In this document: piece after piece, positions 6,931-38,924 of the stretch
How the letters are laid out: each line of letters begins with the position of its first letter
How positions within the stretch are numbered: the first letter of the stretch is position 1
Source: Cheilinus undulatus
Taxonomy: Eukaryota; Chordata; Actinopteri; Labriformes; Labridae
DNA: 64,000 nt
Reading direction: 5' to 3'
Assembly (NCBI RefSeq): GCF_018320785.1
Contig: NC_054866.1
Span: forward strand, 11,187,385-11,251,384
Notes under the pieces: generated by a model
The model's input: the letters and a program-made list of their open reading frames with translations, nothing else
Databases searched by the model: none
Told to the model about the DNA's origin: nothing
Made by a program: the position numbers and the translations under genes

Positions 6931-7904
6931 CTTTACTATCAGCTAAACTGACTGAGGAGGATGACCTCTCAGGGGCTCCCTTTAAACCCTCAGAAAGACG
7001 CTGGAGACCATGAAAAATGAGACAGTGTTTGATATTAGATATCTGTAGTGTGTTATAATCTCCATCCATCTTGTGAAGATAGCAGAGTAAGAAAAGCAGA
7101 AGACAGAGAGTGTTTGCATGTGTACGCAGAGTATATGACCACTCAGCAAAACAACATAGTGATGTAAAGATTTTTCTGCATGTGTTGGCTTTCTCAGACT
7201 CCTCTGGTTACAGAAGCATTTTTCATTCACAGCAACAACTGGATAAAGTTTTAAACATATGTATTAGTATCAAATTAAATTTAAGGTTCAAAATAAATAT
7301 CATTTAGTTTCCTTCAAAGCCACATCCTGAGCTCAATAAGGGTCTGGAGTCATCTCAGTTTCCTGCAAACATTTGGAATATGTTATCAACATTTTAATTC
7401 GTGACAAAGTTCAGAAAATATGACTCATGTTTTTTCCACTTTTCTCAGTACAAACATTTTTAGATGCACAAAGCCTTGAGATGTTAAAGATATAATTGTT
7501 CATAAGAAAGCAGAGTTTAAAAAACAAATAAATAAAACACGGGTCACACTGATGCTGATCTAATACATCATTAAGTTGTTAATGTAAACCATTTACCCAG
7601 CAGCTTCCTTTGAAATTTCCAGGTGTGATTGAGAAGTATTAACACTTAGTGTTCATAAAAATGCAGCATTCAGCTTTTTAAAAGAAACCTGCATATTAAG
7701 GCATGTCACCTTGATCAAATTAACATTAATACCTTCTGTATGGATGTTGTGTACAAAAACACACTTAGTTTCTACATTCTGGGGAAATTTCAAGGACTAG
7801 ATTCACCTGTAGGCTGCCATTTTTATGTAATGCATTCTGGGTAGTGATGTTATTGGGCAGATTTCTTATTCACATCTATTTGACATTTACTTTTTCCTCA
7901 AAGT

Positions 7905-8122
7905 CTTCTTTGCTAAGTCAAGTTCTTCACATCACACCACGTCTTTATAAACTTTGCTTTGTGCACTCGGGTACAGTCATGTTGGACCATCCCCAAACTG
8001 TTGCCAAAAAGTTGGAAGCATAGCATTGTCCAAAATGTCTTGGTATGCTGAAGCATTAAGATTGGCCTTCACTGGAGATAAGTAGCCTAGCCCAAACCCT
8101 GAAAAACAGCCTCAAACCATTA
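7905..8122 (-). pseudogene. Tc1 transposase fragment (TACACTATA family), inverted
   Basis: Read on the minus strand this matches the second half of the transposase at 38401-38600: a VFQGLG-like stretch, then AYQDILDNAMLPTFWQQFGD and a degraded copy of the second catalytic-Asp region. It is truncated at both ends with several frame breaks. Paralogous copies lie at 18080-18305 and, shortened, at 32312-32395. Confidence 0.7.
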
Positions 8123-8715
8123 TCCCTCTTCCTCTATGTATGTACTCTGCCAAGCTCTAGTGACATTCACACACCATGCACAGCTTCTACTTTTAGAAAG
8201 AGACAACCACATCCTGCTAGTTGTCCAAGATATCTGCACAAGCACTTCTGTAGCAGGCAAATATGTTGGTTCCTGTTGCGCCTGGTTCAAGTGACAACCA
8301 GACATGCATTCCAGATACTTTTAATGTTCTGTAAGTCAATGTGGCTGGTGGGCTGTGCAAACTTGCCCCCACACTTAGCAATGATCCTGTTGTTATTTGG
8401 CTGCTAATTTCCATTGAAGGTGCCTTACCTTGCAAAGCAGATGGATTTGCCAGACTGTCTGGCCAGTATCATTTGAGGAAAACGAGGCAGTAGCCAAGGT
8501 GGGGTTAAGATGTTCAGTGAACCAACAGCAATGGCTGCCTCCAGTGTAGCTGTTGGCTTGGATGTAGTTTAGTATAGTAGTGTCAAGACCACACTATCCA
8601 AGAACAAGACTTGCCCTAGACCAGAGTGCACAGAGACCAAGACAAGGCCAAGACTCTTGGGGGTCGAGACCGAGTCAAGACCGACACAAGACTAAGACCA
8701 AGACAAGACTAAGAC

Positions 8716-9899
8716 CAGACCCGGCAGCATGGGCAGGCATTGGGGGCCGTGCCCCCAGCCGTGCCCCCAGCCATGCCCGCCCTGGGACTTGGAGCAGTCC
8801 ATATTTGGGTTTTGTTTTTTCGTCGGAGTAGCCATCTTCTATCATTCCTATCTCGATTTGTCGAACCTACAATTCAACCAATCCGACCCAGGAATGAAGG
8901 CAACATTCTAACAAATAGAGGGGGCGGGTCGCTGAGTCATAGCGAGTCATATGTTCATGGCGTTCACCATCGCTAGTGCGCAGTGAACTGAACATGGATA
9001 TCTGGAATTCTTTCCAAAAAATACAAAAGTACCAAGGACAAGTGACGATGCGGACAGGAGCGAGCAGGAAGCAGCGCCATACAGCTTCACTTCTATTGAA
9101 AACATAAGCACCAAAGTCGACAGCCGCACTGGAGTAAACATTCGTGGCAGGAGGGTTAGCTACAGCAGCTAGGGAGTATACGGAGCAGCACCAAGCAGCG
9201 TAACTCATCTGCATGGAAGAAACGTGAGTGACGACGTCAACAACAAAAACACCACCAAGGTTCACGGTAACATTACAGCCGTGAGGAACAGTAACATGCC
9301 ATTGCAGTCTAGTGACCTTGACACAGAAAAGCCCCAAAGACCATTCATGCAGAGCTTTCCTCCACGCCTTTTCTCTGGGAAAAAGTCTGTGCTGGCCTGT
9401 TGCTGTTCCTCGCGGCTGTAATGTTACCATGAACCTCGGTGGTGTTGTTGTTGTTGACGTCGTCACTCACGTTTCTTCCATGCAGATGAGCTACGCTGCT
9501 TGTCGCTGCTCCTTGTGCTCCCTAGCTGCTGTAGCTAACCCTCCTAGCATGAATGTTTACCCCAGTGTGCAGTTTGACATCAGTGCTTATGTTTCTAATA
9601 GAAGTGAAGCTGTATGGTGCTGCTCTCTGCACGCTGCAGCCCTTGTTGCTGTACTTCTTGACATAAATGCTTGACTTTTGAGTTTTATAAATCGAATAAA
9701 TAAAAATTGAATAAATGTTTTTTTAGATTATGGGATGAACTGCCCCTTTTTAGTGAGATAAAAATGATTTCTCAGCACTGTACTACTCAGCACTGCCACT
9801 ATTTAGCCTGACGCAAATAAAATTTAGGTTGAAAAGGTGTGCCCCCCCCCCAAAAAATGTAATGCCCCCCCCTCTAATTTGTTTCTGCAGCCGGGTCTG
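8716..9899. mobile_element. foldback hAT-type non-autonomous element
   Basis: Begins CAGACCCGGCAGCA and ends TGCAGCCGGGTCTG, giving imperfect terminal inverted repeats of about 13-14 bp. It is flanked by the 8-bp near-duplication ACTAAGAC (8708-8715) and ACTAACAC (9900-9907), as expected for hAT. The shorter MITE in unit 2 lacks it. It contains a large internal inverted repeat (9065-9640) and GC-rich C-tracts just inside both ends. The long open frames on both strands are mirror images of this palindrome, not a transposase. Confidence 0.75.
9065..9640. repeat. long inverted repeat inside the hAT element
   Basis: The left arm (about 9065-9300) and right arm (about 9403-9640) are reverse complements at roughly 85-90 percent by eye. 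They flank a spacer of about 100 bp that has the pieces AAAGCCCCAAAGACC and AGTCTGTGCTGGCC. The arms explain why conceptual peptides on opposite strands share the same words (for example VVDVVTHVSSMQMSYAA). Confidence 0.8.
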
Positions 9900-10999
9900 A
9901 CTAACACCATAAAAATAAATATTTCTTTAGACCATGACAAGGTTGAACAGTTGAAGAGCATTCTCTCTTTAATTTTAGTTTTCTTTTTGATGAATTTGAC
10001 AGATAAAAACAAGGTGTCTGCAACTCTATCAAGGCAAAACATGCAAAAAATCTCAAATCTGAACAAATTTGTTCAACTTACTTCTTGCAAGAAAATAAAT
10101 CCTTGCATGTAACTGACAAGTCTGTAATTATTTTAAATATCTGAAAAGGAGATGTGTATCTAGATTTATCAGTGTTCAGAGAGATTTCTGACTAGAAATC
10201 AGATGCTCTGATGTCCAAGTTTTTGCAGGTGTAGCTTTTTGTTGTTTTAGTAAGTGCTTCTCCTTATTATCACATTAATGAAGTCAAAAAATAGTAAATC
10301 AGCACGTCCCCATGGAAAATCCCAAGTCTGGCCAGTCCAAGACGGAGACAAGCTCAAGTAAAAATGCTCTTGAGTCTGTGACAAGACCAAGACAATCAAA
10401 ATGTGGTCTTGAGACCGGTCTCAAGACCAAGACTGTTATCGAGTACTACAACACTAGGGCAGTTTTTTCAGAAATGAACCACATTTTATTATTAAAACAG
10501 CAGCAAAGAGCCACACTTAAAGCTTTAAATGAGAGAAAAAAATGTCTTTTTGGTGAGATTGCGTTTGGTACAGGCAGGGTTGAGTTACACTGTAAGCCAG
10601 TATACACAATGGCTACAACAATGGTAGCGATTAGCTTGGACGTAGCTGTAGAATAGTGGCAGTTTAATCAGACCTTGACCACATTTCTGTAATAAAACGA
10701 GCCACACTCAAAGCTCTCAGCAGAGAATTTTTTTCATGTCTCCTGATAGATTTCAGGCGTGAATTTTAGTAACAGATAAGTTCACTGTTCAAACACTAAG
10801 GTAGAGATAGCCTGGATAACGCCAGCTAGCATTGTAGCTGTGTGTGTCTACTACCTCATTTTGTCTTGTTGCTCTGATTGGCTCGTTATGAGTGTGACAG
10901 GCAGAACATTCATCCAATCACTAACACTTTAGACTGATAGGGTGATGCACTGTAATTCTCTGCCAGGATGCTCAAGGCCTGACTGAACTCCATGTCTTT

Positions 11000-11465
11000 G
11001 ATTGTGACTAGGTTGAGGAAGTGTCTTCAACATGCTATGTGCCATTATTGAATTCAAACCCAAAGATAACAGCATTAAGGAAATGTCCATGTTTTAAATA
11101 CAGTAGTCTATGGTTGAAGCTCATCTGCACTGTATATTCAAGAGAAGAAGCATAATTCAATGATCAACAATCAATTCAAATTTCAGCTATTGCCACAAAA
11201 CAAAAATGTAATTTGTGTTGTAACAATTTCAAAGTTTTGCAATGCTTGAACTGGTGGAAAGCTCATGAACGTCACAGTGACAAGTATTTCTAGGCCAAGG
11301 GAACTAAGGCGGTGTGAGTTTCCTGTCTTATAATCTATCACCTCTATCTGTCCTTCTCTAACCTCAGACTTGTAAAGTTCAGGAAGAGGAAATTAAGCGC
11401 CGTGTATTTTATTGCCACATTTATTTCAGCGCACAGAAACGCTGCCATTCTCATTGTGTCGAGAC
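11000..11465 (+). promoter_or_regulatory. conserved GPCR 5' flank with probable 3' splice acceptor
   Basis: About 450 bp upstream of the ATG is closely conserved in all three units (also 24020-24468 and 33015-33471). It ends in a pyrimidine-rich tract and TTATTTCAG (CAG ends at 11429), 36 bp before the ATG. This suggests an untranslated first exon spliced onto the single coding exon, as in many class A GPCR genes. Just upstream, CAGGAAGAGGAAA is an ETS/PU.1-like string and CTTATAA could serve as a TATA box; both are weak inferences. Confidence 0.45.
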
Positions 11466-12308
11466 ATGAACGCCACACTGGAAGAGGGACCAGAGCCGGC
11501 TTATGCTGCGTTCTTTGGCTGTATTTTGGCTGTGGGTCTGCCTCTCAATGCTGTGTCACTGTGGATTCTGCTGAGACACCACAGTCTCAAATCCCCCAGT
11601 GCTGTCTACATGGTCAACCTGGCAATCTCAGACCTGCTGCTTGCTATATCTTTACCCTTGAGGGTCTACTTTTACGCCATGGGAACCTGGCCACTGAGCA
11701 CTTTGGCCTGCCACTCCGTTTCGATGCTGTTTCGGAACAACATTCGCTCCAGCGCTTTATTCATCACCATCATCAGCGTGGACCGTCTGCTGGCTGTGGT
11801 TTATCCTCTGAGATCACGGCACCTTCGGACCTCGTCTAACGCCTGGAAAGCTGCAGCGCTCATTTGGCTGTTTGTGATTGTGACGAATGTTCCAGAGAGT
11901 GTTAAATACTTCATCTATTTAAACAATACAAATGAATCTTCCTGTTTCAAAGGTGAAAGAAATTCTAAATCAATAATGATTTATCTACAGCTGGCTCTCG
12001 TGCTCAGCATGCTGGCAGTCAACATTGTGTGCACTGCTCTGGTGTCCTGGACTCTAAACAGACACCTGAATGACTCTACAAGGATCAACAACAAGGTGAA
12101 CGTCATGCTGATCTTTGTTATGAGCCTGGTGATGTTCATCGTATGTTTCTTACCTCTGTGTGTTGGTTTACTTGTAAAAACAACAAGTGAAGAGATAATA
12201 CCTTTAGTATGTCTCACTAGTGTGAACTGCTGCCTGGATCCTCTGCTGTATTACTTTTCCTTTGATGCTTTCTGGAAGAAAAAAGACAATGCAGATCTTC
12301 CTGGATAA
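11466..12308 (+). CDS. GPR55/GPR35-like class A GPCR, tandem copy 1
   Basis: An intronless 280-aa receptor. Start MNATLEEG at 11466 is chosen over in-frame upstream non-ATG codons because a splice acceptor lies 36 bp before it and residue 2 is a glycosylation sequon. Approximate helices: TM1 14-36 (Asn28), TM2 47-70 (Asp56), TM3 82-108 (Cys82; DRL 106-108 in place of DRY), TM4 126-142, TM5 170-197, TM6 212-237 (CFLP 227-230) and TM7 244-266 (DPLLY 258-262). ECL2 has Cys160, pairing with Cys82, and NNT/NES sequons. NCCLD-xxx-YYF and FLPLxVGL resemble GPR35/GPR55 of the P2Y-like group, whose members answer lysophospholipids or small acids. The tail is only about 14 residues. LPAR5/6-like is the main alternative. 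Adjacent itm2c favours gpr55. Confidence 0.85.
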   Translation: MNATLEEGPEPAYAAFFGCILAVGLPLNAVSLWILLRHHSLKSPSAVYMVNLAISDLLLAISLPLRVYFYAMGTWPLSTLACHSVSMLFRNNIRSSALFITIISVDRLLAVVYPLRSRHLRTSSNAWKAAALIWLFVIVTNVPESVKYFIYLNNTNESSCFKGERNSKSIMIYLQLALVLSMLAVNIVCTALVSWTLNRHLNDSTRINNKVNVMLIFVMSLVMFIVCFLPLCVGLLVKTTSEEIIPLVCLTSVNCCLDPLLYYFSFDAFWKKKDNADLPG

Positions 12309-12592
12309 CAGAAGTCAAAGGACATATTAGATTTATGTGTTGGCATCATGTCTGTAATGTAACAATGAATTTTTGCAGTTATGTGTGATGCTCATTTAGA
12401 TCACAAACCTATCCTCTCATAAATGTCCTTAAATGTAAAGATTTAACATGAGGCCAGGCAAATATGTTCCTATTAAAATCTGCATAAATGTTCTCAAGTA
12501 CATTCTACATATGCTGTGTGATTTACTGTTTTTAATTGTATATTGCTTGTCTTTTTGTTACAAAATACTGTTGTACATCCTGTCAGTAACTG

Positions 12593-12598
12593 ATTAAA
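12593..12598 (+). other. candidate poly(A) signal of GPCR copy 1
   Basis: ATTAAA about 285 bp after the stop. The 3' flank is shared with copies 2 and 3 (ATCTGATTAAAAAATTG near 25590 and 34600). The homologous flank continues past it, so the exact 3' end is not fixed. Confidence 0.35.
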
Positions 12599-12923
12599 AT
12601 TGTTCCAAAAACCCGTTTGAAAAAAAATTGCCTTTGAATATATATATAGCACAAATAAATTTAAGATATATAGATAGGTACAATGCCAATTCCAAAAAAG
12701 TTGGGATGTAAAATGTAAAAAAAAAAAACAGAGTACACAGCAACAACAGCAGTAGAGTTGATTTTACATTGATTTTTATGTTGCAGTCTGATGCTACAGT
12801 TGAAAAAAAAACAAACATTTTTATTCTCATTAATCTACACTCAGTAACCAATCATGACAAAATGTAAAACAGAATTTTAGAATTTTTGTAAATTTATAAA
12901 AATAAAAAAAATAGATATCACAT

Positions 12924-15090
12924 TGACATAAGTGTTCAGACCCCTTGCAAAACCTCTTGAAATCTAGCTCCATTTCTCTGTATCTTTCTGAGATGTTTCT
13001 ACACCTCGATTGCAGTCAACATGTCATAAATTAAATTAATCGGACATGATTTGTACAGGTCTCTCGAGGAGTCGTAACAACTGACAATGCATATAAGAGC
13101 AAAAATCAGGCTATAAGTTTAAAGGACAAAGTGGCCTCCATGATTCTCAAATGGAAAAAGCACAACCAGGACTCTACCAAGAGTTGGTCACCCAGCCAAA
13201 CTGAGCAATCGGGGGAGAATGGCCGTAGTAAGAGAACATGATGGTCACTCTGACTAAGCACCAGAGATCCTGTGTAGAGGTGGGACATAGATCCAGAAGG
13301 ACAGTCATTACTGCAGTCCTACACTCAGTGGCAGCTGGCCAATAGAGGGCGCTGGGGCACAGCCCCTCCTGAGCCGGACACACATAAAACAGTAAGTATG
13401 AATTAGAAAATATAATCCTTTAAATTAAAAAAGATCCATATGTGAGTACGTTATGATATAGACCCAGCAATATGTGATTTTAATGTAAAACAAGTCACCT
13501 ACGTGGAGAAATCTGCATCTATTTAGTGTTTTCTTCTCTTTTCTGTATGCTTTTCCTGCTCTGGGGGAAAATTTCAAGTAGCCCCGAGGAGGCGGGTTTA
13601 AGACGCAGTTTCACCGATGACTCATTGACTATATATGTGAGTGACACACAGATTAACCAATCAGCACGCTTATAATGAATCCGTTTGGGGCAGTCCAGGG
13701 CAACTTTCAAGTAGCCCATCATTCAGTCGTTGGCTAAAGTCAAAAATGGTCTCTTCTCGCGTAATTGAACGGGAACTGGATGGTAATGAACTATAAACTT
13801 TCCTGGAGCGGCTGCCTCAGAAACTCTTCGAGACCGCGGTGAATGGAGACCTGACAGAGAAACCATAGGAAGCAGAGCTAGGTCTGGATCAACCTGGTTG
13901 TGACTGAACAGGCGGAAAAGGACAGTGCTATGTGCGGGGCTTCAGTAGCGGATTCACCCGCGAGGCTAGCGGGCTAATGTTGCTAATGCTAATGCTTTCC
14001 TGTTTACTGAGTCAGTGCGATCATATCAGCCTGTCAGAAACGGGACAGTGAATATGAAGCGCTCCTGAGAAAGTGAAGAGACTCCAAGATGCCTCTCAAG
14101 AAACGGGATAGACAGGGTTAGGGTGGTCGTCTGAATCAGGTAAATGAATATTAGTCTGTTTACAGTAAAATGGCTGTTTGATAACGTTAGTTATGACGGC
14201 GTCTTAAAACTTTATTGAGTCCTGTCATTTAGGTTGAAGCTGGTCAAAAGAAGATCATCACAGTTAAACCAGTTTTAGTATTTTAAGTACTAGATATCGA
14301 TGATAAGGCTATCAGATATTGATGATAATCAATATGTTTTGTATTGTCAAATTGGAATCATTTCCAGTATGAGTAAACCCCAGGAAGAATAGCTGCTGCA
14401 ATATAAGTTAATGAGGGTCTAAACAAATGTACAAAAAAGATAAATTGTTATTACTGAATGCAATGTTGAATATAAGGGGAATATTGTGGTGCCCATCAGA
14501 TCCACCTGTGGGGACTAGTTGGTGTCTTAAACTTAGTTTTGCTATGGAGTATACACAGGATATTCACTGTAAAATGAAAGAATAATACATCTGCCTTTGA
14601 GTAAAATGAGAATATGTTCAAATGTTAAAATTTAACACAGTATAAAAAATAGAAGCATACTCATTATTTTGACAATATAACTGCACTTAAAAGATGAAAA
14701 GGCTACTTATGAATAAAAGTCAGTTGTGTTTTTTCTTCGAGTTAATTAAGTCAAGTAGTTTGATCACAAGATAGTCACTCTCCTCTGCTCTCTTCTTCTC
14801 TCTTCTCTTTGGGACAGTACATCTGAACAACAGCCAATCAGACTACAGAGGACACGAACACAAAATGATTGCTGTATGTTAAAATGCAAAGAAGAATGGT
14901 TGTCTTTTGACTTTTGACTTTAAAAAACAGACAATGTGCCCTGTAGTTGAACAGATTTAGGACAGCCCCACCAATGAAATTTTTCACCAGCCGCCACTGC
15001 CTACACTGATCTGGGCTTCATGGCAGTGTGGCTGGACGGAAGCCTCTCCTCAGTGAAAAACACATGAAACCCAGTGAGATTTTACAAAAA
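12924..15090 (+). pseudogene. decayed Tc1-like transposase, interrupted by a hAT element
   Basis: After a Tc1-type inverted-repeat remnant (GTGTTCAGACCCCTTGCAAAA), the plus strand keeps a degraded Tc1 transposase N-terminal half: VASMILKWKKH, a broken GRP-like region and words equivalent to MVTLTELQRSC. It resumes after 14999 with the piece leading to the first Asp region. Multiple frameshifts and stops. Paralogues at 25757-26265 and 36196-36710 lack the hAT insertion. Confidence 0.75.
13326..14999. mobile_element. hAT element, non-autonomous, 1674 bp, unique to unit 1
   Basis: Begins CAGTGGCAGCTGG and ends CCAGCCGCCACTG. It is flanked by a perfect 8-bp duplication CCTACACT (13318-13325 and 15000-15007). 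The homologous sites in units 2 (near 26195) and 3 (near 36625) contain a single CCTACACT and no insert, which proves the boundaries. The interior has an early ATG frame that soon stops and no dimerisation or catalytic hAT domain that I can read, so it is a deletion derivative. It inserted after the unit duplicated, or was lost cleanly elsewhere (less likely). Confidence 0.9.
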
Positions 15091-15114
15091 ACTCCAAATG
15101 AAAGCCAAAAGTAG

Positions 15115-15206
15115 TATCAGTGGCCTCTGGTTTTGCACAGCTGATAAAGCAGGTGCCCGTTAACAGAGGCTACAGTCTTTGATTCAGTACTAGCAGGATC
15201 AATCCC
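15115..15206 (+). repeat. tRNA-derived SINE 5' part
   Basis: CAGCTGATAAAGCAGGTGCC resembles a box A head and GGATCAATCCCC a decayed box B, with ACAGAGGCTACAGTC between, as in common fish tRNA-SINEs. Also present in unit 3 (36746-36836) and missing from unit 2, where a LINE-associated deletion removes it. Confidence 0.5.
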
Positions 15207-15474
15207 CACTAAATGTATCGTGTTTGAAATTCAGCCACCAGGGGGCTCTCAACCAAAACAATATCACAACATGCTGAGCAAAGACCAGCGCTGCCTGATC
15301 ATCTCTGCTGTTTTTTATACCGAGGACTGTTCAATAGAACAGGTCCTTAAAAGGCCTATTTACTCAACAGAAAACCCATGTTTTGTTTTCATTCATAAAT
15401 TTCTCACTATGAGGGAAGCATGCACTTAAAAAAAGCCCTTCCAGGTTTGTGCTGGAAGCAGATATACACTATAG

Positions 15475-16029
15475 TGCCAAAAGTATTCACTCACCCATCC
15501 AACTAATTGAAATCAGGTGTTACAATCACTTCCATGGCCACAGGTGTATAAAATCAAGCACCTCGGCATGCAGACTGTTTCTACAAACATTTGTGAAAGA
15601 ATGGGTCGTTCTCAGGAGCTCAAAGAATTCCAGCATGGTACTGTGATAGGATGCAACCTGTGCAACAAGTCCAGTCGTGAAATTTTCTCACTCCTAAATA
15701 ATCCACAGTCAACTGTCAGTGGTATTATAACAAAGTGGAAGCAATTGGGAAAGACAGCAACTCAGCCACGAAGTGGAAGGCCACGTAAAATGAAAGAGAA
15801 TGGTCAGTGGATGCTGAGGCACATAGTGCGCAGAGGTCACCATCTTTCTGAAGAGTCAATCACTACAGACCTCCAAATTTCATGTGGCCTTCAGATTAAC
15901 TCAAGAAGAGTGCGTAGAGAGCTTCATGGAATGGGTTTCTGTAGCTGAGCAGCTGCATCCAAGCCATACATCACCAAGTGTAATGCAAAGCGTCGGATGC
16001 AGTGGTGTAAAGCATGCCACCACTGGACT
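15475..16029 (+). pseudogene. Tc1 element, TACACTATA family, truncated in mid-transposase
   Basis: The terminal repeat TACACTATAGTGCCAAAAGT is followed by a transposase ORF from ATG 15601 (MGRSQELKEFQ, paired HTH region with GRPRKM). It has a stop near 15946 and is cut off at GGACT just before the first catalytic-Asp region. The unit 3 copy (37091-38924) continues past this point. The cut coincides with the spacer junction. Confidence 0.85.
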
Positions 16030-17475
16030 GGACTCGCCGGATTTTTGGAGGGATGATGGAGAATTTTTAAGGCTGTCATTTTGACGGACTGGAATGATGA
16101 GGATGAGCCTCCATTTCAGCGCACACACACAGACAGATGAACCTTTTCCATTTAGCACACATGGACTATCAAGGAGGTTATTTAATCTATTAAAAATCTT
16201 GTAGCCAGTGGGCTCTATCACTGACCTTGACACCGTATTTGTAAAAGCACGTTGGTCTCCATGCTGACAGTGCACTGAGAGGCTGCTGCAGGTGTCTCAG
16301 TACACAGGTCAGCATGCAGAGTGTTAAGGCCTTTGCACAATGAGTCCGTTTCATGTTGTTCTAATCATGTCTGTGCACTGGTGCTGAAATTGATGTTATA
16401 TTTGTTCCGGTTTTTTTTTTTCGGAACAGGTTCAATTTTATGTGAAATTTCGTATTTCATATTGTGTCCAAGGTGACTGATAATTCAAAACAGTTCCTGC
16501 TGCTTCCACCTCGCTTTCTCACCACCGAAACCTCACTTTAAACACCAAAGTTTGCTCATTTATCATGTGGATATCTCTCTTTCTCTCTCTGAAACCTCTC
16601 TTTAAACACTGTAGTTTTCCCGTGTATTATGTGGATATCAACCATGAAAATATAACAGATAAAGGCATATTTTTGTAGCCTACTCACAGGTCATAACAGA
16701 GACAGAATTAAAAAGTTGTTCTCCGTCTCTCCAGCTTGTTTCTGCGCTATGATGCATGAATGGGTGCTGTATGAAGCTTTGTGTCAGGATGTATCCAGCT
16801 GGATTTTAAAGGAGTGACAGAGACACAGGCTCGTAGTACGAAACTATTTTCCACATTCTACAAATGCGCATGGCTCCACAGTGCAGCCTTTTAACTTGTT
16901 ACCAGTTATGGTCATCAAACTACAACATCTTGACATTAAAAATATCCTCAAAACTGTGCGTGATATCTTAAATGGGTCAGTTCATAGTTGCTTGCTTAAA
17001 GACAGGGATTGTTGCTCCACCGTCACTGCGTAAAAATGACGAGCAGTAAACGCTGTGCTGCTGTGTTCATCTTTCTCTCAGTCCCATTAAAATGCAGAAC
17101 CTCAAAGATTGTTTTTTTTAATAAAAGTTTAGAAATGGTGCTTCATTAATTAAACACTACAAATGAAGCCACATTGAGTTATATTACATTACAGATATTA
17201 AAGAGAAAATTATAATGACGGATTGTAAAATGGCATGACGGAATTTTTACGATCCTGCTCTGTGAGCATGTTTTGTTGCTGTTTCAGTACTGATGTAAAA
17301 AAAAAAAAAGTGATATTTCACTTAAAACATGAAATAAGACTACGCCGCGGATGCATTTTGTAGTAGACTTACCTAAAGTAAAACCAATTATAGTCATCGT
17401 CCCCAGCACTTCTCAAAAGTCACTTTTGCTAATAGTTATTGTTCCCCCCACACAAAACAAACTGACGCCCTTGCT
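16030..17475. repeat. inter-unit spacer, copy 1
   Basis: Joins the truncated Tc1 to the head of unit 2 and is repeated at 29970-31727. It is absent before unit 1 and after unit 3. There is no gene; contents include a TCCGG-T11-CGGAACAGG hairpin-like string near 16407 and A/T-rich tracts. The sequence from GTTAAGGCCTTTGCACAAT (about 16322) looks like a transposon end with a TTAA, but I could not find a matching second end. Confidence 0.75.
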
Positions 17476-18305: not shown

Positions 18306-18365
18306 ATGTATGTACTCTGCCTAGTGCTAGTGACATTCACACACCATGCACAGCTTCTGCTTTTA

Positions 18366-26265: not shown

Positions 26266-26316
26266 AGTAGGCCTATTTACTCAGTAGAAAACCCATGTTT
26301 TGTTTTCATTCAGTGT

Positions 26317-28416: not shown

Positions 28417-29404
28417 ACACTACCACCTCCTTCCCCACTTGAGAACCCAGAGCAGAACCCCCCCACAAACAACATCTGTGCATCTCATGATAGGGCATGG
28501 CACACAAGCTCAGGCTTGATCACCCTGTAGCTGGCCGCCTTTGATGAGGGTGTCTAGTGTTTGAAAGGCCAAAACACCCTATGACTCATAGGTACACTAC
28601 TGATGATGTGCCCTAAAGTTACATCTGTCCATATCCGAGATACACCTCCGATGGAGCTGTTAACCACCAGGAGGAACTACTAGGAGGATTCTGCTCTTAG
28701 GTATTGTTGCACTGCAATCACGAGTGGTGTTAAAGAAGGTAGTATCGGCATCATCACTACCTGGAGCTCGCATCAACAAAACCTGGGTCTGTTGAAGGTG
28801 GCATGCTGTTGAGGCTGTGTGGGCCATGTGATAAGATAGGTAAGAGGATGTCTGCGTGTATGCATGGTGGGTCTTGAGAGCCGGCATGGAGGGGGGTGGC
28901 TCTGGGACGCTAGGGATCACTGTTCAGACCTTTGGAGGTGTCCGCTCTTAACATCGGGAAACCACCAGGAGGACCTACTAGGAGGACTCCCAGTCACTCT
29001 TAACATCAAGGAAACCCTCAGGTAAGTTAGGTGCATCTCTGGTGACGCTCTTGATGTTGGGAGCGTCATTGGAGATGCACCTCCAGTGATGCTCTTGGCA
29101 TTGAGGAACTATCAGGAGGAGCCACCAGGAGGAATCACAAGGAAGAATCCCAATCACTCTTAACATTAAGGAAACCCTCAGGTAAAGTGCATACCACCTA
29201 TTGGCACAATGGACAGTTTAACATCACATCCCATGTCTCATGATTCTGCTGTTTTTTATACTGAGGACTGTTCAATAGAACAGGTCCTCATAAGGCCTAT
29301 TTACTCAACAGAAAACCCATGTTTTGTTTTCATTCATAAATTTCTCACTATGAGGGAAGCATGCACTTAAAAAAGCCCTTCCAGGTTTGTGCTGGAAGCA
29401 GATA

Positions 29405-29969
29405 TACACTATATTGCCAAAAGTATTCACTCACCCATCCAAATAATTGAAATCAGGTGTTACAATCACTTCCATGGCCACAGGTGTATAAAATCAAGCA
29501 CCTAGGCATGCAGACTGTTTCTACAAACATTTGTGAAAGAATGGGTCGTTCTCAGGAGCTCAATGAATTCCAGCATGGTACTGTGATAGGATGCCACCTG
29601 TGCAACAAGTCCAGTCATGAAATTTCCTCGTTCCTAAATAATCCACAGTCAACTGTCAGTGGTATTATAACAAAGTGAAAGCAATTGGGAACGACAGCAA
29701 CTCAGCCACGAAGTGGTAGGCCACGTAAAATGACGGAGCGGGGTCAGCGGATGCTGAGGCGCATAGTGCACAGAGGTCACCATCTTTCTGAAGAGTCAAT
29801 CACTACAGACCTCCAAACTTCATATTGCCTTCAGATTAGCTCAAGAAGAGTGCATAGAGAGCTTCATGGAATGGGTTTCCATGGCCGAGCAGCTGCATCC
29901 AAGCCATACATCAACGAGTGCAATACAAAGTGTGGGATGCAGTGGTGTAAAGCATGCCACCACTGGACT
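29405..29969 (+). pseudogene. Tc1 element, TACACTATA family, truncated, unit 2 copy
   Basis: Same truncation point (GGACT) as 15475-16029. The transposase opens at ATG 29541 (MGRSQELNEFQ), has a stop after IITK near 29678, and reads on to FHGRAAASKPYINECNTKCG. Confidence 0.83.
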
Positions 29970-31727
29970 GGACTCGCCGGATTTTTGGAGGGATAATGGA
30001 GAATTTTGAAGGCTGTCCGTCATTTTGACAGACTGGAATGATGAGGATGAGCCTGCATTTCAGCGCACACACACAGACAGATAAACCTTTTCCATTTAGC
30101 ACACACGGACTATGAAGGAGGTTATTTAATCTATTAAAAATCTTGTAGCCAGTGGGCTCTATCACTGACCTTGACACCGTATTTGTAAAAGCACGTTGGT
30201 CTCCATGCTGACAGTGCACTGAGAGGCTGCTGCAGGTGTCTCAGTACACAGGTCAGCATGCAGAGTGTTAAGGCCTTTGCACAATGAGTCCGTTTCATGT
30301 TGTTCTAATCATGTCTGTGCACTGGTGCTGAAATTGATGTTTTATTTGTTCCGGTTTTTTTTTTTCGGAACAGGTTCAATTTTATGTGAAATTTCGTATT
30401 TCATATTGTGTCCAAGGTGACTGATAATTCAAAACAGTTCCTGCTGCTTCCACCTCGCTTTCTCACCACCGAAACCTCACTTTAAACACTAAAGTTTGCT
30501 CATTTATCATGTGGATATCTCTCTTTCTCTTTCTGAAACCTCTCTTTAAACACTGTAGTTTTCCCGTGTATTATGTGGATATCAACCATGAAAATATAAC
30601 AGATAAAGGCATATTTTTGTAGCCTACTCACAGGTCATAACAGAGACAGAATTAAAAAGTTGTTCTACGTCTCTCCAGCTTGTTTCTGCGCTATGATGCA
30701 TGAATGGGTGCTGTATGAAGCTTTGTGTCAGGATGTATCCAGCTGGATTTTAAAGGAGTGACAGAGACACAGGCTTGCAGTACGAAACTATTTTCCACAT
30801 TCTACAAATTTTCGCAGTCAAGGCAAATACAATCACGCCTAAATCAGTGTGCAAGGTCCGAGTGTGCGACATTTTTTTCGGATTACGACTCCTGTGGAGC
30901 AGACAAATGCGCACAGCTCCACAGTGCAGCCTTTTTTTTTTTTAAGATGTATTTTTGGGCTTTTTCATGCCTTTATTTGACAGAGGAAGGACAGTGGATA
31001 GATAGGGAAACAGGGAAGAGTGTGGTGAGAGACATGTGATAAAGGGCCGCAGGCCGTATTCGAACCCTCACCACCCGCATACATGGGTAGCGCCTTAAAC
31101 TACTCGACCATCTGCGTTCCCGTCAATGCAGCCTTTTAACAACTTGTTACCAGTTATGGTCATCAAACTACAACATCTTGACATTAAAAATATCCTCAAA
31201 ACTGTGCGTGATATCTTAAATGGGTCAGTTCATAGTTGCTTGCTTAAAGACAGGGATTGTTGCTCCACCGTCACTGCGTAAAAATGACGAGCAGTAAACG
31301 CTGTGCTGCTGTGTTCATCTTTCTCTCAGTCCCATTAAAATGCAGAACCTCAAAGATTGTTTTTTTAATAAAAGTTTAGAGCTTCATTAGTGCTTCATTA
31401 ATTAAACACTACAAATAAAGCCATATTGAGTTATATTACATTACAGATATTAAAGAGAAAATTATAATGACGGATTGTAAAATGGCATGATGGAATTTTT
31501 ACGATCTTGCTCTGTGAGCATGTTTTGTTGCTGTTTCAGTACTGGTGTAAAAAAAAAACAAAAAAAGTGATATTTTACTTAAAACATGAAACAAGACTAT
31601 GCCTCAGATGCATTTTATAGTAGACTTACCTAAAGTAAAACCAGTCATAGTCAGCATTTCTCAAAAGTCACTTTTGTTATTGCCCCCCCACACACACACA
31701 CACACAAAACAAACTGACGCTCTTGCT
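29970..31727. repeat. inter-unit spacer, copy 2
   Basis: Homologous to 16030-17475 over its length but about 300 bp longer, from a SINE insertion (30936-31126) and about 100 bp (near 30815-30905) absent from copy 1. No gene. Confidence 0.78.
30936..31126 (-). repeat. tRNA-derived SINE inserted in spacer copy 2
   Basis: Minus-orientation SINE: the reverse of box B (TATTCGAACCC) near 31049-31059, a body with GACAGAGGAAGGACAGTGGA, and a T-rich 5' side (the tail). Flanked by the duplicated TGCAGCCTTTT (30925-30935 and 31127-31137). The spacer copy in unit 1 has one such site near 16884, confirming the insertion. Confidence 0.82.
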
Positions 31728-33471
31728 CAAAACCACATCCTGAGCTCAATAAGGGTCTCGAGTGTTCTCAGTTCCAACATTATCAACATTTTATTTCCCT
31801 TTCAAATTGAATCAAAGTTCAGAAAATATGACTTATGTTTTTTCCACTTTTCTCAGTACAAACATGTTAAGATGCACAAAGCCTTGAGGTGTGGAAGATA
31901 TTATTGTTCATAAGAAAGCAGAGTTTAGTAAAACAAATAAATAAAACACGGGTCACACTGATGCTGATCTAATACATCATTAAGTTGTTAATGTAAACCA
32001 TTTACCCAACAGCTTCCTTTGAAATTTCCAGGTGTGATTGAGAAGTATTAACACTTAGTGTTCATAAAAATGCAGCATTCAGCTTTTTAAAAGAAACCTG
32101 CATATTAAGGCATGTCACCTTGATCAAATTAACATTAATACCTTCTGTATGGATGTTGTATACAAAAACACACTTAGTTTCTACATTCTGGGGAAATTTT
32201 AAGGAATAGATTCACCTGTAGGCTGCCATTTTTATGTAATGCATTCGGGTAATGATGTTATTGGGCGGATTTCTTATTCACATCTATATGACATTTACTT
32301 TTTCCTCAAAGTCTTCTTTGCTAAGTCAAGTTCTTCACATCACACCACGTCTTTATAAACTTTGCTTTGTGCACTGGGTTACAGTCATGTTGGAAATATG
32401 GCAAATATGTTGGTTCCTACTGCGCCTGGTTCAAGTGACAACCAGACATGCATTCCAGATACTTTTAATGTTCTGCAAGTCACTGTGGCTGGTGGGCTGT
32501 GCAAACTTGCCCCACACTTAGCAATAACCCGGTTGTCATTTGGCTGCTAATTTCCATTGAAGGTTTGCGTTTGGTACAGGCAGGGTTGAGTTGCACTGTA
32601 AGCCAGTATACACAATGGCTACAACAATGGTAGCGATTAGCTTGGACGTACCTGTAGAATAGTGGCAGTTTAATCAGACCTTGACCACATTTCTGTAATA
32701 AAACGAGCCACACTGAAAGCTCTCAGAAGAGAATTTTTTTCATGTCTCCTGATAGATTTCAGGCATGAACTTTAGTAACAGATAAGTTCACTGTTCAAAC
32801 ACAAACGTAGAGATCACCTGGATAACGCCAGCTAGCATTGTAGCTGTGTGTGTCTACTACCTCATTTTGTCTTGTTGCTCTGATTGGCTTGTTATGAATG
32901 TGACAGGCAGAACATTCGTCCAATCACTAACACTTTAGACAGATAGGGTGATGCCTTGTAATTCTTTGCCAGGATGCTCAAGGCCTGACTGAACTCCATG
33001 TCTTTGCTTGTGACTAGGTTGAGGAAGTGTCTTCAACATGCTATGTGCCATTATTGAGTTCAAACCCAAAGATAACAGCATTAAGGAAATGTCCATGTTT
33101 TAAATACAGTCGTCTATGGTTGAAGCTCATCTGCATTGTATATTCAAGTGAAGAAGCATAATTCAATGATCAACAATCAATTCAAATTTCAACTATTGCC
33201 ACAAAACAAAAATATAATTTGTCTTGTAACAATTTCAAAGTTTTGCAATGCTTGAACTGGTGGAAAGCTCATGAATGTCACAGTGACAAGAATTTCTAGG
33301 CCAAGGGAACTAAGGCGGTGTGAGTTTCCTGTCTTATAATCTATCACCTCTATCTGTCCTTCTTTAACCTCAGACTTATAAAGTTCAGGAAGAGGAAACC
33401 ACACATGATGTGTTTTATTGCCACATTTATTTCAGTGCACAGAAACACTGCTGTTCTCATTGTGTCGAGAC

Positions 33472-34314
33472 ATGAACGCCACACTGGAAGAGGGACCAGA
33501 GCCGGCTTATGCTGCGTTCTTTGGCTGTATTTTGGCTGTGGGTCTGCCTCTCAATGCTGTGTCACTGTGGATTCTGCTGAGACACCACAGTCTCAAATCC
33601 CCCAGTGCTGTCTACATGGTCAACCTGGCAATCTCAGACCTGCTGCTTGCTATATCTTTACCCTTGAGGGTCTACTTTTACGCCACGGGAACCTGGCCAC
33701 TGAGCACTTTGGCCTGCTTCTTGGTTTTATTGCTGTTTTGGAAAAACATTCGCTCCAGCGCTTTATTCATCACCATCATCAGCGTGGACCGTCTGCTGGC
33801 TGTGGTTTATCCTCTGAGATCACGGCACCTTCGGACCTCGTCTAACGCCTGGAAAGCTGCAGCGCTCATTTGGCTGTTTGTGATTGCGACAAGTGTTGAG
33901 AATAGCGTTAACTACTTCATCTCTTTAAACAATACAAATCAATCTTCCTGTTTCAAAAATGATGGAAATTCTAAATCAATAACGACTTATCTTCAGCTGG
34001 CTCTCATGCTCAGCATGCTGGCAGTCAACATTGTGTGCACTGCTCTGGTGTCCTGGACTCTAAACAGACGCCTGAATGACTCTACAAGGATCAACAACAA
34101 GGTGAACGTCATGCTGATCTTTGTTATGAGCCTGGTGATGTTCATCGTATGTTTCTTACCTCTGTATGGGGGTTTACTTGTAAAAACAACAAGTGAAGAG
34201 ATAAAACCTTTCATATGTCTTGCTAGTGTGAACTGCTGCCTGGATCCTCTGCTGTATTACTTTTCCTTTGATGCTTTCTGGAAGAAACAAGACAATGCAG
34301 ATCTTCCTGGATAA
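33472..34314 (+). CDS. GPR55/GPR35-like class A GPCR, tandem copy 3
   Basis: 280 aa, start MNATLEEG, intact, with DRL, CFLP and NCCLDPLLYY. By eye about 28 residues differ from copy 1. They are clustered: residues 83-91 (TM3 just after Cys82, HSVSMLFRN versus FLVLLLFWK) and residues 139-172 (end of TM4, ECL2, start of TM5, for example NVPESVKYFIY versus SVENSVNYFIS), with near-identity elsewhere. Both blocks face the extracellular ligand pocket in class A receptors. The upstream acceptor is conserved; the sequence after GAGGAAA differs (CCACACATGATG), giving an out-of-frame upstream ATG at 33405 in the presumed intron side. Confidence 0.85.
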   Translation: MNATLEEGPEPAYAAFFGCILAVGLPLNAVSLWILLRHHSLKSPSAVYMVNLAISDLLLAISLPLRVYFYATGTWPLSTLACFLVLLLFWKNIRSSALFITIISVDRLLAVVYPLRSRHLRTSSNAWKAAALIWLFVIATSVENSVNYFISLNNTNQSSCFKNDGNSKSITTYLQLALMLSMLAVNIVCTALVSWTLNRRLNDSTRINNKVNVMLIFVMSLVMFIVCFLPLYGGLLVKTTSEEIKPFICLASVNCCLDPLLYYFSFDAFWKKQDNADLPG

Positions 34315-34769
34315 CAGAAGTCAAAGGACATATTAGATTTATGTGTTGGCATCATGTCTGTAATGTAACAATGAATTTTTGCAGTTATGTGTGATGCTCA
34401 TTTAGATCAAAAACCTATCCTCTCATAAATGTCCTTAAATGTAAAGATTTAACATGAGGCCAGGCAAATATGTTCCTATTAAAAGCTGCATAAATGTTCT
34501 CAAGTACATTCTACATATGCTGTGTGATTTATTGTTTTTAATTGTATATTGCTTGTCTTTTTGTTACAAAATACTGTTGTACATCCTATCAATATCTGAT
34601 TAAAAAATTGTTCCAAAAACTTTTTTGCAGTCAGATGCTACAGTTGAAAAAAATCATTTTTATTCTCATTAGTCTACACTCAGTAACCAATCATGACAAA
34701 ATGAAAACAGAATTTTAGAATTTTTTGTAAATTCATAAAAATATAAAAATGAAATATCACATTGACATA

Positions 34770-36193
34770 CAGTCATGGATGTAAGTATTGGCATCCCTGG
34801 AATTTTTCCAGAAAATACATCATTTCTACCAGAAATTGTTGCAATTACAAATGTTTTGGTATACATGTGTTTATTGCCTTTATGTGCATTGGAGCAACAC
34901 AAAAAATCAGAAGGAAAAAAGACACAATTGACATAATTTACACAAAACTCAAAGACAAAACTATTCACACCATTTTAAAATTGTGGGTAAATCATTTTAT
35001 TTCAAGCATGTGATGCTCATTTAAGCTCACCTGTGGCAGAAACAGGTGCTGGCAATCTAGAAATCACACCTGAAGCCAGTTAGAATGTATAAAAGTTAAT
35101 TTTGTGTTGTGTGCCTGTGTGTGTCCCATCAAGCATGAAGAGAAAGAAGAGCCCAGAATTGTCTGAGGACTTAAGAAGCAAAATTTTGGAAAAATGTGAA
35201 CAATCTCAAGGTTTCAAGACCATCTCCAGAGATCCTAAAATTCCTTTGTCCAATGTGTGTAATATAATCAAGAAGTTTATAACCATGGAGCTGTGGCTAA
35301 TCCCGGACGTGGCCAGAAGAGAAAAATGGACAAAAGAATGCAACGCATGATAGTTGGAATGGTGGATAAAAATCCTCAGTCAACTTCCACACAAATTCAG
35401 ACTGTCCTGCAGACTCAGGTAGAGCTTTTTGGAAAAGCACGTCATTCTACTGTTTACAGAAAACAGAACGAGGCCTACAAAGAAAAGAACACAGTACAGT
35501 CAAACATGATGGAGGTTCAAGGATGTTTTGGGGTTATTTTGCTACCTCTCTTGCACTGGGTGCCTTGACTGTGTGCAAGGAATCATGAAATCTGGAGACT
35601 ATCAAAAAAATTTTGGGCTGCAATGTAAGGCCTAGTGTCAGAAAGCTGGGTCTGGGTCAGAGGTCATGGGTGTTCCAGCAGGACAATGACCCCAAACATA
35701 CCACAAAAAGCACCAAGAAATGGTTGGAGACAAAGCTGGAGAGTTCTGAAGTGGCCAGTAATGAGTCTGGTCTAAATCCCATTGAACACCTATGGAGAGA
35801 TCTCAAAATTGCTGTTGCAAGAAGCACCCTTCAAATCTGAGAGACCTGGAGCAGTTTGCAAAAGAAGAGTGGTCCAAAATTCCTATTAAGAGGTGTAGGA
35901 AGCTTGTTGATGGTTATAGGAAGTGATTGGTTTCAGTAATTTTTTTTTTCCAAGGGTGTGCAACCAAATATTAAGTTGAGGGTGCCAACAATTTTGTCTG
36001 GCCCATTTTTTGAGTTTTGTGTAAAATTGTGTCAATTTTGTCTTTTTTCTTTGGATTTTTTTGTGTTGTTCCAATGCACATAAAGGCAATAAACACATGT
36101 ATACCAAAACATTTGTAATTGCAACAATTTCTGGTAGAAATGGTGTATTTTCTGGAAAAATTCCAGGGGTGCCAATACTTTCGTCCATGACTG
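34770..36193 (+). mobile_element. Tc1/mariner element, CAGTCATGG family, unique to unit 3
   Basis: Long terminal inverted repeats (about 210 bp) begin CAGTCATGGATGTAAGTATT on the left and end in its reverse at 36193. They are flanked by TA (34768-34769, 36194-36195); units 1 and 2 have a single TA in the same context (GACATAAGTG, GACGTAAGTG). The transposase is broken: an N-terminal HTH from MKRKKSPELSEDLRSKI (about 35136), a middle piece, and a C-terminal piece (35613-35840) with FQQDNDPKHTTKSTKKWL and LNPIEHLWRDLK, the second Asp and the Glu of DD34E. The first Asp region is lost or unreadable. Confidence 0.9.
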
Positions 36194-36195
36194 TA

Positions 36196-36710
36196 AGTGT
36201 TCAGACCCCTTGCAAAACCACTTGAAATGTAGCTCCCATTTCTCTGGATCTTTTGAGATGTTTCGGTACATCGATTAGAGTCAGTCAACATGTCATAAAT
36301 TAAATTAATCGGACGTGATTTGGACAGGTCTCTCGAGGAGTCGTAACAACTGACAATGCATATATGAGCAAAAATCAGGCCATAAGTTTAAAGGACACAG
36401 TGGCCTCCATGATTCTCAAATGGAAAAAGCACAACCAGGACTCTACCAAGAGTTGGTCACCCAGCCAAATTGAGCAGGCGGAGGAGAATGGCCATAGTAA
36501 GAGAACATGATGGTCACTCTGACTAAGCACCAGAAATCCTGCGTAGAGGTGGGACATAGTTCCAGAAGGACAGTCATTACTGTTGAGAAATAAAATGTAT
36601 TATTATTATTAGTACTTCTGCAGTCCTACACTGATCTGGGCTTCATGGCAGTGTGGCTGGATGGAAGCCTCTCCTCAGTGAAAAACACATGAAACCCAAT
36701 TAGATTTTGC
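36196..36710 (+). pseudogene. decayed Tc1-like transposase, unit 3 copy
   Basis: Third paralogue of the 12924-15090 remnant, hAT-free, carrying the single CCTACACT site near 36625. Broken in several frames. Confidence 0.72.
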
Positions 36711-36745
36711 AAAAAGCTCCAAATGAAAGCCAAAAGTAGTATCAG

Positions 36746-36836
36746 TGGCCTCTGGTTTTGCTCAGCTGATAAAGCAGGCACCCGTAAACAGAGGCTACAG
36801 TCCTTGATTCAGTACTAGCAGGATCAATCCCCACTA
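36746..36836 (+). repeat. tRNA-derived SINE 5' part, unit 3 copy
   Basis: Paralogue of 15115-15206 (CAGCTGATAAAGCAGGCACC, GGATCAATCCCC). Confidence 0.5.
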
Positions 36837-37090
36837 AATGTACCGTGTTTGAAATTCAGCCACCAGGGGGCTCTCAACCAAAACAATATCACAACATGCT
36901 GAGCAAAGACCAGCGCTGCCTGATCATCTCTGCTTTTTTTTATACTGAGGACTCTGTTCAATAGAACAGGTCCTCATAAGGCCTATTTACTCAACAGAAA
37001 ACCCATGTTTTGTTTTCATTCATAAATTTCTCACTATGAGGGAAGCATGCACTTAAAAAAGCCCTTCCAGGTTTGTGCTGGAAGCAGATA

Positions 37091-38924
37091 TACACTATAG
37101 TGCCAAAAGTATTCACTCACCCATCCAAATAATTGAAATCAGGTGCTCCAATCACTTCCATGGCCACATGTGTATAAAATCAAGCACCTAGGCATGCAGA
37201 CTGTTTCTACAAACATTTGGGAAGGAATGGCTCGCTCTCAGGAGCTCAGTGAATTCCAGTGTGTTACTGTGATAGGATGCCACCTGTGCAACAAGTCCAG
37301 TCGTGAAATTTCCTCGCTCCTAAATAATCCACAGTCAACTGTCAGTGGTATTATAACAAAGTGGAAGAGATTGGGAATGAAAGCAACTCAGCCACGGAGT
37401 GGTAGGCCACGTAAAATGACAGAGCGGAGTCAGTGGATGCTGAGGCGCATAGTGGGCAGACGTCGACAATTTTCTGAAGAGTCAATCACTGCAGACCTCC
37501 AAACTTCATGTGGCCTTCAGATTAGCTCAAGAAGAGTGCATAGAGAGCTTCATGGAATGGGTTTCCATGGCCGAGCAGCTGCATCCAAGCCATACATCAA
37601 CGAGTGCAATACAAAGTGTGGGATGCAGTGGTGTAAAGCACGCCGCCACCGGACTCTAAAGCAGTGGAGACGCATTCTCTGGAGTGACAAATTGCGCTTC
37701 TCCATCTGGCAATCTGAATGACGAGTCTGGGTTTGGCGGTCGCCAGGAGAACAGTACTTGTCTGACTGCATTGTGTCAAGTGTAAAGTTTGGTGGAGGGG
37801 GGTTTAAGGTGTGTGGTTGTCAGGATTGGTAAAAACTCAAAAGGGAAGGACTCAAATGCAAAGGCACAAAAAACTATTTAATTAACTAAAAATGCAAAAA
37901 CTACAACAAGGTGCTAACAAAATCAAAATGCACAAAAAGGCCAAAATACTAAACCTAAAGATCACCAAAAGAACACGAGGGAACACTGGATGAAAATCAC
38001 AAGAGGTTACACACAGGGGAGTCACAGGCAGGATATGCAGACGAACTGACACAGACACAGGGAGACCCAGAAACTAAATAGACAGGGGGTGATTAGACAC
38101 TGGGAGACAGGTGAGGCCAATGACACAGGTGAGGGAGAACAAGACACAGGTGAAGGCAATCAGGGTGGAGGGAAAAACACAAGGGCAGGAAGAAAGCCAG
38201 AGGACACACACGAGGAGAAGAAAACTACAAAATAAAACAGGAAACACTGAACAGGAGCACGTGGAACACATGGAGGGAAACTGACACAACTTGAAACTAA
38301 AGACAAGGGAACACAGGAGGTAGAAAAACAAACATAAGGAGCACCAGAAACCCAAGTAACTAAAAATTAACACAACTAAACCCAAACCATGACAGTGGTT
38401 GTTTTTCAGGAGCTGGGCTTGGCCCCTTAGTTCCAGTGAAAGGAACTCTGAATGCTTCAGCATACCAAGAGATTTCGGACAATTCCATGCTCCCAACCTT
38501 GTGGGAACAGTTTGGGGATGGCCCCTTCCTGTTCCAACATGACTGTGCACCAGTGCACAAAGCAAGGTCCATAAAGACATGGATGATAGAGTTTGGTGTG
38601 GATGAACTTGACTGGCCTGCACAGAGTCCTGACCTCAACCTGATAGAACACCTTTGGGATGAATTAGAGCAGAGACTGAGAGCCAGGCCTTCTCATCCAA
38701 CATCAGTGTGTGACCTCATAAATGCGCTTCTGGAAAAATGGCCAAAAATTACCATAAACACACTCATAAACCTTGTGGAAAGCCTTCCGGGAAGAGTTGA
38801 AGCTGTTATAGCTGCAAAGGGTGGACCGACATCGTATTAAACCCTATGGATTAAGAATGGGATGTCACTTAAGTTCATATGCGAGTCAAGGCAGGTGAGC
38901 AAATACTTTTGGCAATAAGGTGTA
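37091..38924 (+). mobile_element. Tc1 element, TACACTATA family, full span with insert
   Basis: Inverted ends TACACTATAGTGCCAAAAGT and (reversed) TACACCTTATTGCCAAAAGT. Transposase opens at ATG 37227 (MARSQELSEFQ), with HTH and GRPRKM, then HRTLKQWRRILWSDKLRF (first Asp) and a stop at 37719-37721. After the 37821-38394 insert it resumes with FQHDCAPVHKA (second Asp) and SPDLNLIEHLWDELE (Glu), ending GGPTSY near 38840. The catalytic residues are all present but the ORF is interrupted by stops and the insert. It is the reference for the truncated copies in units 1 and 2. Confidence 0.88.
37821..38394. mobile_element. 574-bp insert of unknown family inside the Tc1 element
   Basis: Starts CAGGATTGGTAAAAAC, ends CCAAACCATGACA. 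The 8-bp GTGGTTGT is present on both sides (37813-37820, 38395-38402), matching the uninterrupted Tc1 sequence. The ends are weak inverted repeats (TGTCAGGATTGG versus TGTCATGGTTTGG). The interior is A-rich with repeated ACACAGGTGA-like words and no coding capacity. The 8-bp duplication would fit hAT- or P-like transposition. Confidence 0.6.

Follow-up and report, generated by a model that had tools for sequence, protein, structure and literature searches.

A tandem array of receptor genes raises three questions: whether the copies are genuine, whether each has remained an intact gene, and whether the copies have come to sense different things. Receptor genes duplicated in tandem are frequent in vertebrate genomes. 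The locus described here lies in a stretch of 64,000 nucleotides, referred to as the window (C2:11187385-11251384 of an assembly that totals 1.17 Gb and consists of 46 contigs), in which three units follow one another head-to-tail on the same strand, each with a receptor gene. A preliminary description had proposed a recent tandem triplication of an intact GPR55-like receptor at this site.

A Tandem Array of Three Units

Self-BLAST of the window finds colinear homologous blocks spanning 7314-37655, which bears out the proposed triplication, with an age that is moderate to low. The identity of the blocks is mostly 90%–98%, with one gap-rich block at 85%, and private insertions interrupt them (Table 1). 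In the blocks that align three ways, the pairwise difference between units is 1.8%–7.7%. The features by which a tandem gene array is recognized are present: one orientation, homologous flanks, a common junction, and low divergence. The homologous 5′ flank noted in the preliminary description is also present and is longer than the ∼450 bp given there; copies 1 and 3 share ∼900 bp unbroken and then, with gaps, sequence back to 7314, and the shorter figure corresponds only to the stretch of copy 2 that lies 3′ of its private insertion.

Table 1. Features of the receptor array, in positions of the window
Feature	Position	Strand	Evidence	Remarks
Receptor copy 1	11466-12308	+	ORF list, Pfam	280 codons, PF00001
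Receptor copy 2	24469-25311	+	ORF list, Pfam	280 codons, PF00001
Receptor copy 3	33472-34314	+	ORF list, Pfam	280 codons, PF00001
Acceptor-like tttatttcag and 36-base leader	11420-11465	+		ahead of copy 1
Tandem unit 1 (U1)	7314-17474	+	self-BLAST chain, block alignment, insertion edges	left edge of array
U1 insertion relative to U2	about 8699-10379			region absent from U3
U1 insertions absent from U2 and U3	12613-12780; 13314-14999		insertion edges	
Junction filler U1/U2	16030-17474	.		1445 bases; stops exactly at unit start
Tandem unit 2 (U2), middle	17475-31726	+	self-BLAST, block alignment, insertion edges	
U2 private insertions	about 18367-18994, 20193-24021, 26268-29244			
U2 private 3.8 kb insertion	20193-24021	-		reverse-transcriptase ORF at 21885-22487 (-)
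Tandem unit 3 (U3)	31727-37655	+		right edge within Tc1 fragment that continues beyond 37655 in U3 alone
U3 private inverted-repeat element	about 34770-36198			TA on both sides
Copy 3 patch after TM3 cysteine	33718-33744	+		codons 83-91; 6 of 9 changed, 6 amino-acid changing
Copy 3 patch, top of TM4/ECL2	33886-33924	+		codons 139-151; 8 of 13 changed, 6 amino-acid changing

The three units start alike in the block alignment, and U1 and U2 end in a common junction, where a Tc1 fragment (assigned from Pfam) is truncated, at 16029 or 29969, and is followed by filler. Because of this common end, and because the Tc1 fragment runs on past the array in U3 only, the left flank is assigned to U1 and the right flank to U3. 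Such an arrangement is as expected if a tandem duplication came first and an unequal exchange second. The filler itself is a member of a dispersed repeat family, with at least 110 matching pieces in the same genome among the 40 of 2472 candidates that were scored; many of the pieces among the matches listed begin near filler base 9–13 or finish at its last base. The 16-base target copies bordering the insertion in U2 that carries the reverse-transcriptase ORF mismatch at two positions.

The middle unit is a mosaic. It is closest to U3 in the left blocks A (0.027) and B (0.018) and closest to U1 in block D (0.031, the remaining two pairs being at 0.062 and 0.077); in the block alignment neither pairing is favored by block F. 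The ratio of copy-1-unique to copy-3-unique sites shifts from 24:13 to 11:27 (Fisher P = 0.003). A mosaic of this kind is what an unequal crossover inside the unit would predict.

It is very improbable that the array arose during assembly, by haplotypes or misjoined copies being placed end to end. The divergence between units, the private insertions in every one of them and the shared junction sequence all speak against it, the whole array is contained within one contig of 57.6 Mb (C2), and the right flank (41000-42600) has a single full match, its other matches, at least 39 in number, being short and at most 80% identical. Haplotype collapse is likewise an unlikely source of the copies. A protein search of the same genome returned the three copies, a paralog at 69% identity (L004) that lies 544 kb downstream of the array, and otherwise nothing above 41% among the 138 of 431 candidates scored. 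A DNA search of the assembly with copy 3 returned the same four loci and nine 47-base matches on contig C17, and no further close copy or donor for copy 3. The fourth paralog, like the clustering of changes described below, is an addition to the preliminary description. The locus is a genuine, fairly young array of three receptor genes, of a known kind.

Integrity of the Three Receptor Genes

The three ORFs have the length and common orientation first described, and each matches the 7tm_1 profile (PF00001) over positions 2–260 of 260 with scores of 120.5–122.3 bits, against a cut-off of 30.5. Residues C82, C160, D106-R107, and D258-P259-L-L-Y262 are invariant across the three copies and in L004. 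We take C82 and C160 to be the TM3-ECL2 disulfide, D106-R107 to be the D/E-R motif that ends TM3, and DPLLY (258–262) to be the N/D-P-x-x-Y motif of TM7, all hallmarks of class A receptors. The acceptor-like sequence tttatttcag finishes 36 bases 5′ of the ATG in all three copies, in agreement with the earlier statement that disulfide cysteines, TM motifs, and splice acceptor are retained; in L004 an acceptor-like cccacag lies 10 bases 5′ of the ATG. Two ATTAAA motifs are found 3′ of every stop codon in the array, offset from it by 164 and 285 bases.

The copies differ by 17 (1 and 2), 28 (1 and 3), and 27 (2 and 3) amino acids, in line with the earlier estimates of 17 and about 28 from copy 1, and by 32, 40, and 46 of 840 nucleotides, respectively. 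No frame-breaking event is observed, compared with ∼6.5 expected from the non-coding indel rate if events in the three copies are treated as independent (P about 0.0015). The absence of stop codons is by itself uninformative (P = 0.19). As had been suggested, all three copies are intact and probably functional.

Distribution of the Differences between Copies

Helix anchors were set by motif, and a split at mid-membrane gave an outer (extracellular) half of 128 codons and an inner (cytoplasmic) half of 152; the halves were drawn from these anchors, though after the list of differences had been seen. With this division, 32 of the 36 amino-acid-variable codons fall in the outer half (Fisher P = 1.2e-8), a count reached by 2 of 279 circular shifts. 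Eight of the 11 codons with silent variation only are also in the outer half, and the distribution of nonsynonymous and silent-only codons over the halves does not differ (P = 0.33). Since silent changes, too, are denser in the outer half, part of the contrast between halves is not selection on residues.

Aligned non-coding DNA of the array provides a scale for these counts. Variable nucleotides number 51 of 384 in the outer half, 8 of 456 in the inner half, and 243 of 3349 in the non-coding alignment. The inner half thus shows about one-quarter of the non-coding variation (P = 6e-7) and the outer half about twice that variation (odds ratio 1.96, P = 1e-4). The outer count of 51 exceeds the maximum of 48 found among 371 overlapping 384-nt intervals of the concatenated non-coding blocks.

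The change is greatest in copy 3, where 13 residues are altered from a state common to L004 and the two remaining copies, compared with 2 each for copies 1 and 2 (P = 0.007 for each contrast). Changes in copy 3 form two dense patches (Table 1). As a sign of either conversion or selection this clustering is weakened by equally dense patches in non-coding DNA (up to 10 changes in 27 nt). The ratio of multiply to singly hit codons is 11:36 in the coding sequence and 29–33:170–179 in non-coding triplets, a modest difference judged from counts alone. L004 is used as the outgroup on the strength of its 69% identity; in a protein tree it is placed beside copies 1 and 2 with copy 3 outside, at weak support (81/79), probably because copy 3 is accelerated.

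The ratio of outer to inner pN is 8–18 within the array and 3–4 between the array and L004, compared with 0.9–1.9 in ten control receptor pairs from the same genome, which were chosen by the analyst among 40 loci fetched from 138 scored matches and are mostly older than the array, with only L034/L062 of similar age. One control pair, L031/L049, also shows more silent change in its outer half (P = 0.008). Of the 35 ligand-contact residues of LPA6 given in the available part of PMC8812926, 21 were mapped onto the array by hand, gaps and the N terminus being left out. Six of these 21 positions have changed, compared with 36 of 280 overall (P = 0.04). Enrichment at ligand contacts was not retained as a separate effect, as it goes little beyond what the remaining outer positions show (6 of 20 compared with 26 of 108).

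Selection, Conversion, and Relaxed Constraint

The comparison of dN/dS among the copies, suggested in the preliminary description, depends on how silent change is modeled. When a single silent rate is fitted to the gene, the three copies give an ω of 2.1 for the outer half, which is above 1 at P = 0.012, and of 0.18 for the inner half. Moving the limits of the halves by 3 residues changes the outer P to 0.006 or 0.053, and the half-to-half contrast persists under the shared silent rate. With free silent rates, ω is 1.13 outside, not above 1, and 0.43 inside (P = 0.22 for the difference), and the outer half has a silent rate 4.6 times that of the inner half (P = 0.004). A codon model that includes L004, again with free rates, gives an ω of 0.55 for the outer half and 0.29 for the inner half (P = 0.04). 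The outer ω is 1.08 on the array branches, again not above 1, compared with 0.34 on the branch of L004 (P = 0.005); on the copy 3 branch it reaches 1.99, which is not different from 1 (P = 0.20). Constraint of the inner half by purifying selection and release of the outer half are well supported by the sequences, and the estimates are no more than suggestive of positive selection on the outer half.

The unequal silent rates bring gene conversion into consideration, and conversion can mimic positive selection, according to the available part of PMC3514295. Segmental conversion among the copies, and at earlier times with the 69% paralog, would homogenize parts of the cytoplasmic half; the outer half would escape or receive short tracts from diverged copies since lost, and selection for new ligands would not be needed. 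The NG86 estimates of pS against L004, 0.62 outside and 0.31 inside, partly reflect path counting. At codons with an unchanged residue the silent difference from L004 is still 0.43 and 0.20 (for copy 1, 26 of 61 codons in the outer half and 23 of 115 in the inner half; P = 0.002), so that a counting artefact does not account for the whole of the silent contrast. The roughly twofold excess is found in each copy (P = 0.002, 0.006, and 0.003 for copies 1, 2, and 3), and between copies 1 and 3 silent change at such codons is seen at 0 of 140 in the inner half and 4 of 100 in the outer half (P = 0.03). Conversion would also fit runs of agreement longer than in shuffled sequences, seen for pairs 1-2 (P = 0.005) and 1-3 (P = 0.004) and less clearly for pair 2-3 (P = 0.06), as well as the dense patches of copy 3, which have their equal in the non-coding DNA. 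However, a scan for a local low in silent divergence from L004 is non-significant (P = 0.29–0.39), the DNA search of the assembly with copy 3 yielded no further donor, and in codons 83–91 of this copy all nine changed bases lie in amino-acid-changing codons. Conversion alone also poorly explains a pN that is ∼10 times lower inside, and as the whole explanation it is considered unlikely.

Nor does relaxed constraint, under which redundant copies would tolerate change in the outer half and might be on the way to becoming pseudogenes, account well for the pattern. An outer ω near 1 under free silent rates is what it would give. It sits poorly with three coding sequences without an indel, with inner ω estimates of 0.18–0.43, and with an outer half that varies above, and not at, the non-coding rate, and is judged improbable.

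The preferred account, to which we give a probability of roughly 0.7, is a tandem triplication in which the cytoplasmic half has stayed constant and the ligand-facing half has diverged toward different ligand preferences. It starts from what is observed, namely the array, the open frames, the mosaic middle unit, and the rate contrast between halves. The ancestor would have been a class A receptor gene whose coding sequence occupied one exon, from an LPA6/LPA5-like branch. Tandem duplication, and then triplication through unequal crossing-over, would have given three copies that all retained the open frame. Purifying selection would have kept the half that faces the G protein constant, and the extracellular half would have diverged as fast as neutral sequence or faster, most of all in copy 3. 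The likely result would be receptors with the same signaling output that differ in which ligand they prefer or how strongly they bind it; the ligand may be a lipid or some other small mediator. Expression, coupling, the ligand, and an adaptive rather than relaxed origin of the outer changes are presumed in this account.

Both adaptive change in the outer half and conversion in the inner half are plausible, and the two may act together; three copies and one outgroup do not separate them. A fuller version, in which the inner half is held uniform by purifying selection together with repeated conversion, even with the paralog 544 kb away, and the outer halves are driven apart to give one output and several ligands, can be put forward only tentatively and appears doubtful.

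Relationship to LPA and GPR55 Receptors

The GPR55-like label of the preliminary description does not hold. The best matches of copy 1 among solved structures are LPA6a (128 bits), LPA5 (127 bits), and LPA6 (126 bits), with two LPA6 chains within 123–128 bits and the next match at 104. A profile of the three copies and L004 gives LPA6 at 152 and 148, LPA6a at 147, and LPA5 at 137 bits, with the next at 112. GPR55, which is also a class A receptor, is absent among the 60 matches listed for copy 1; L004 matches it at 63 bits, compared with 129 for LPA6, with 43 chain sequences ranking ahead of it. By these matches, the name is corrected to a receptor nearer LPA6/LPA5 than GPR55.

The array is also not the ortholog of LPA6. 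Separate LPA6-type genes (L023 and L024) are present in the genome, L023 scores 504 bits against LPA6a, and the identity of the array receptors to this gene (region L005) is 35%. A tree built from 44 receptors of this genome joins the array and L004 to L023/L024 with support of 95/83. This placement is tentative, given the length of the branch to the array (1.86) and a tree in which the LPA5, GPR35, and GPR55 genes of the same genome are unlabeled. Among relatives sought in viral contigs, six stretches fit a pattern and none was confirmed.

LPA6 and LPA5 are the closest named relatives of the array receptors. Compared with LPA6a, however, ECL2 is 6–7 residues shorter in the array and the TM6-ECL3-TM7 region 15 residues shorter. 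The basic residues of the LPA6 phosphate site are K1.31, R2.60, R6.62, and R7.32 in the available part of PMC8812926. Only R2.60 has a clear counterpart, which is retained as R66; the counterparts of R6.62 and R7.32, mapped by hand, fall within or beside alignment gaps, and K1.31 lies beyond the aligned part, with a proline there by extrapolation. Binding of LPA in the manner of LPA6 appears unlikely, and the receptor is tentatively read as, in effect, an orphan of the LPA6/LPA5-like branch.

Comparison with Opsin Duplicates

The green opsins RH2a of African cichlids offer a parallel, as tandem class A receptor duplicates of fish whose coding sequences diverge while their introns show gene conversion (PMC3514295, in the part available). 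In contrast to the opsins, whose ligand is known, the array receptors are orphans, and their changes are spread across the outer half. A literature search of limited scope returned no title on an array such as the present one. The array is ordinary in kind and interesting in detail, as the split between a constant, putatively signaling half and a fast, putatively ligand-facing half appears unusually sharp. With three intact genes, flanking DNA that can be aligned to gauge neutral change, a related paralog elsewhere in the genome, and this spatial split, the array makes the gain of new ligands under gene conversion directly testable. The concentration of differences in the outward-facing half suggests that the copies may be drifting, or may be selected, toward sensing different things.

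Structure and Surroundings of the Receptor Array

The stretch that closes the first unit of the array (U1), immediately before the start of U2, belongs to a dispersed repeat family, and the end of the repeat coincides with the unit boundary. A transposon may therefore have been involved in the first duplication of the array.

Upstream of the receptor gene, comparison of U3 (window 32394-32565) with U1 (window 7987-10558) showed that two U1 stretches, ~7987-8255 and ~8422-10558, are absent from U3, which may have deprived copy 3 of distal regulatory DNA. Within the U1 insertion lies a 577-base stretch with an ~81% match to its own reverse complement.

Features of the window
Feature	Window position	Description
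Junction filler	16030-17474	Dispersed repeat family member
Self-complementary stretch	9059-9635	In U1 insertion
Tc1-like element	59752-61361	286-codon ORF with DDE_3 and HTH_Tnp_Tc3_2

The Tc1-like element is apparently young; the inverted repeats bounding it (216 bases) are 96% alike.

Related Receptors Elsewhere in the Genome

A search of the fish's own genome identified a fourth paralog with an open frame (L004, G000:C2:11765981-11766787; 69% identity), 544 kb downstream of the array and on the same strand; it served as the outgroup for array comparisons. Receptor genes are also clustered at G000:C17:9549911-9838271, with 13 among the matches listed (12 on the minus strand, one on the plus). 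For L027, the single member tested, proteinase-activated receptor 1 was the nearest match, at 242 bits, and on this sequence similarity the cluster may be an expanded thrombin-receptor-like array.
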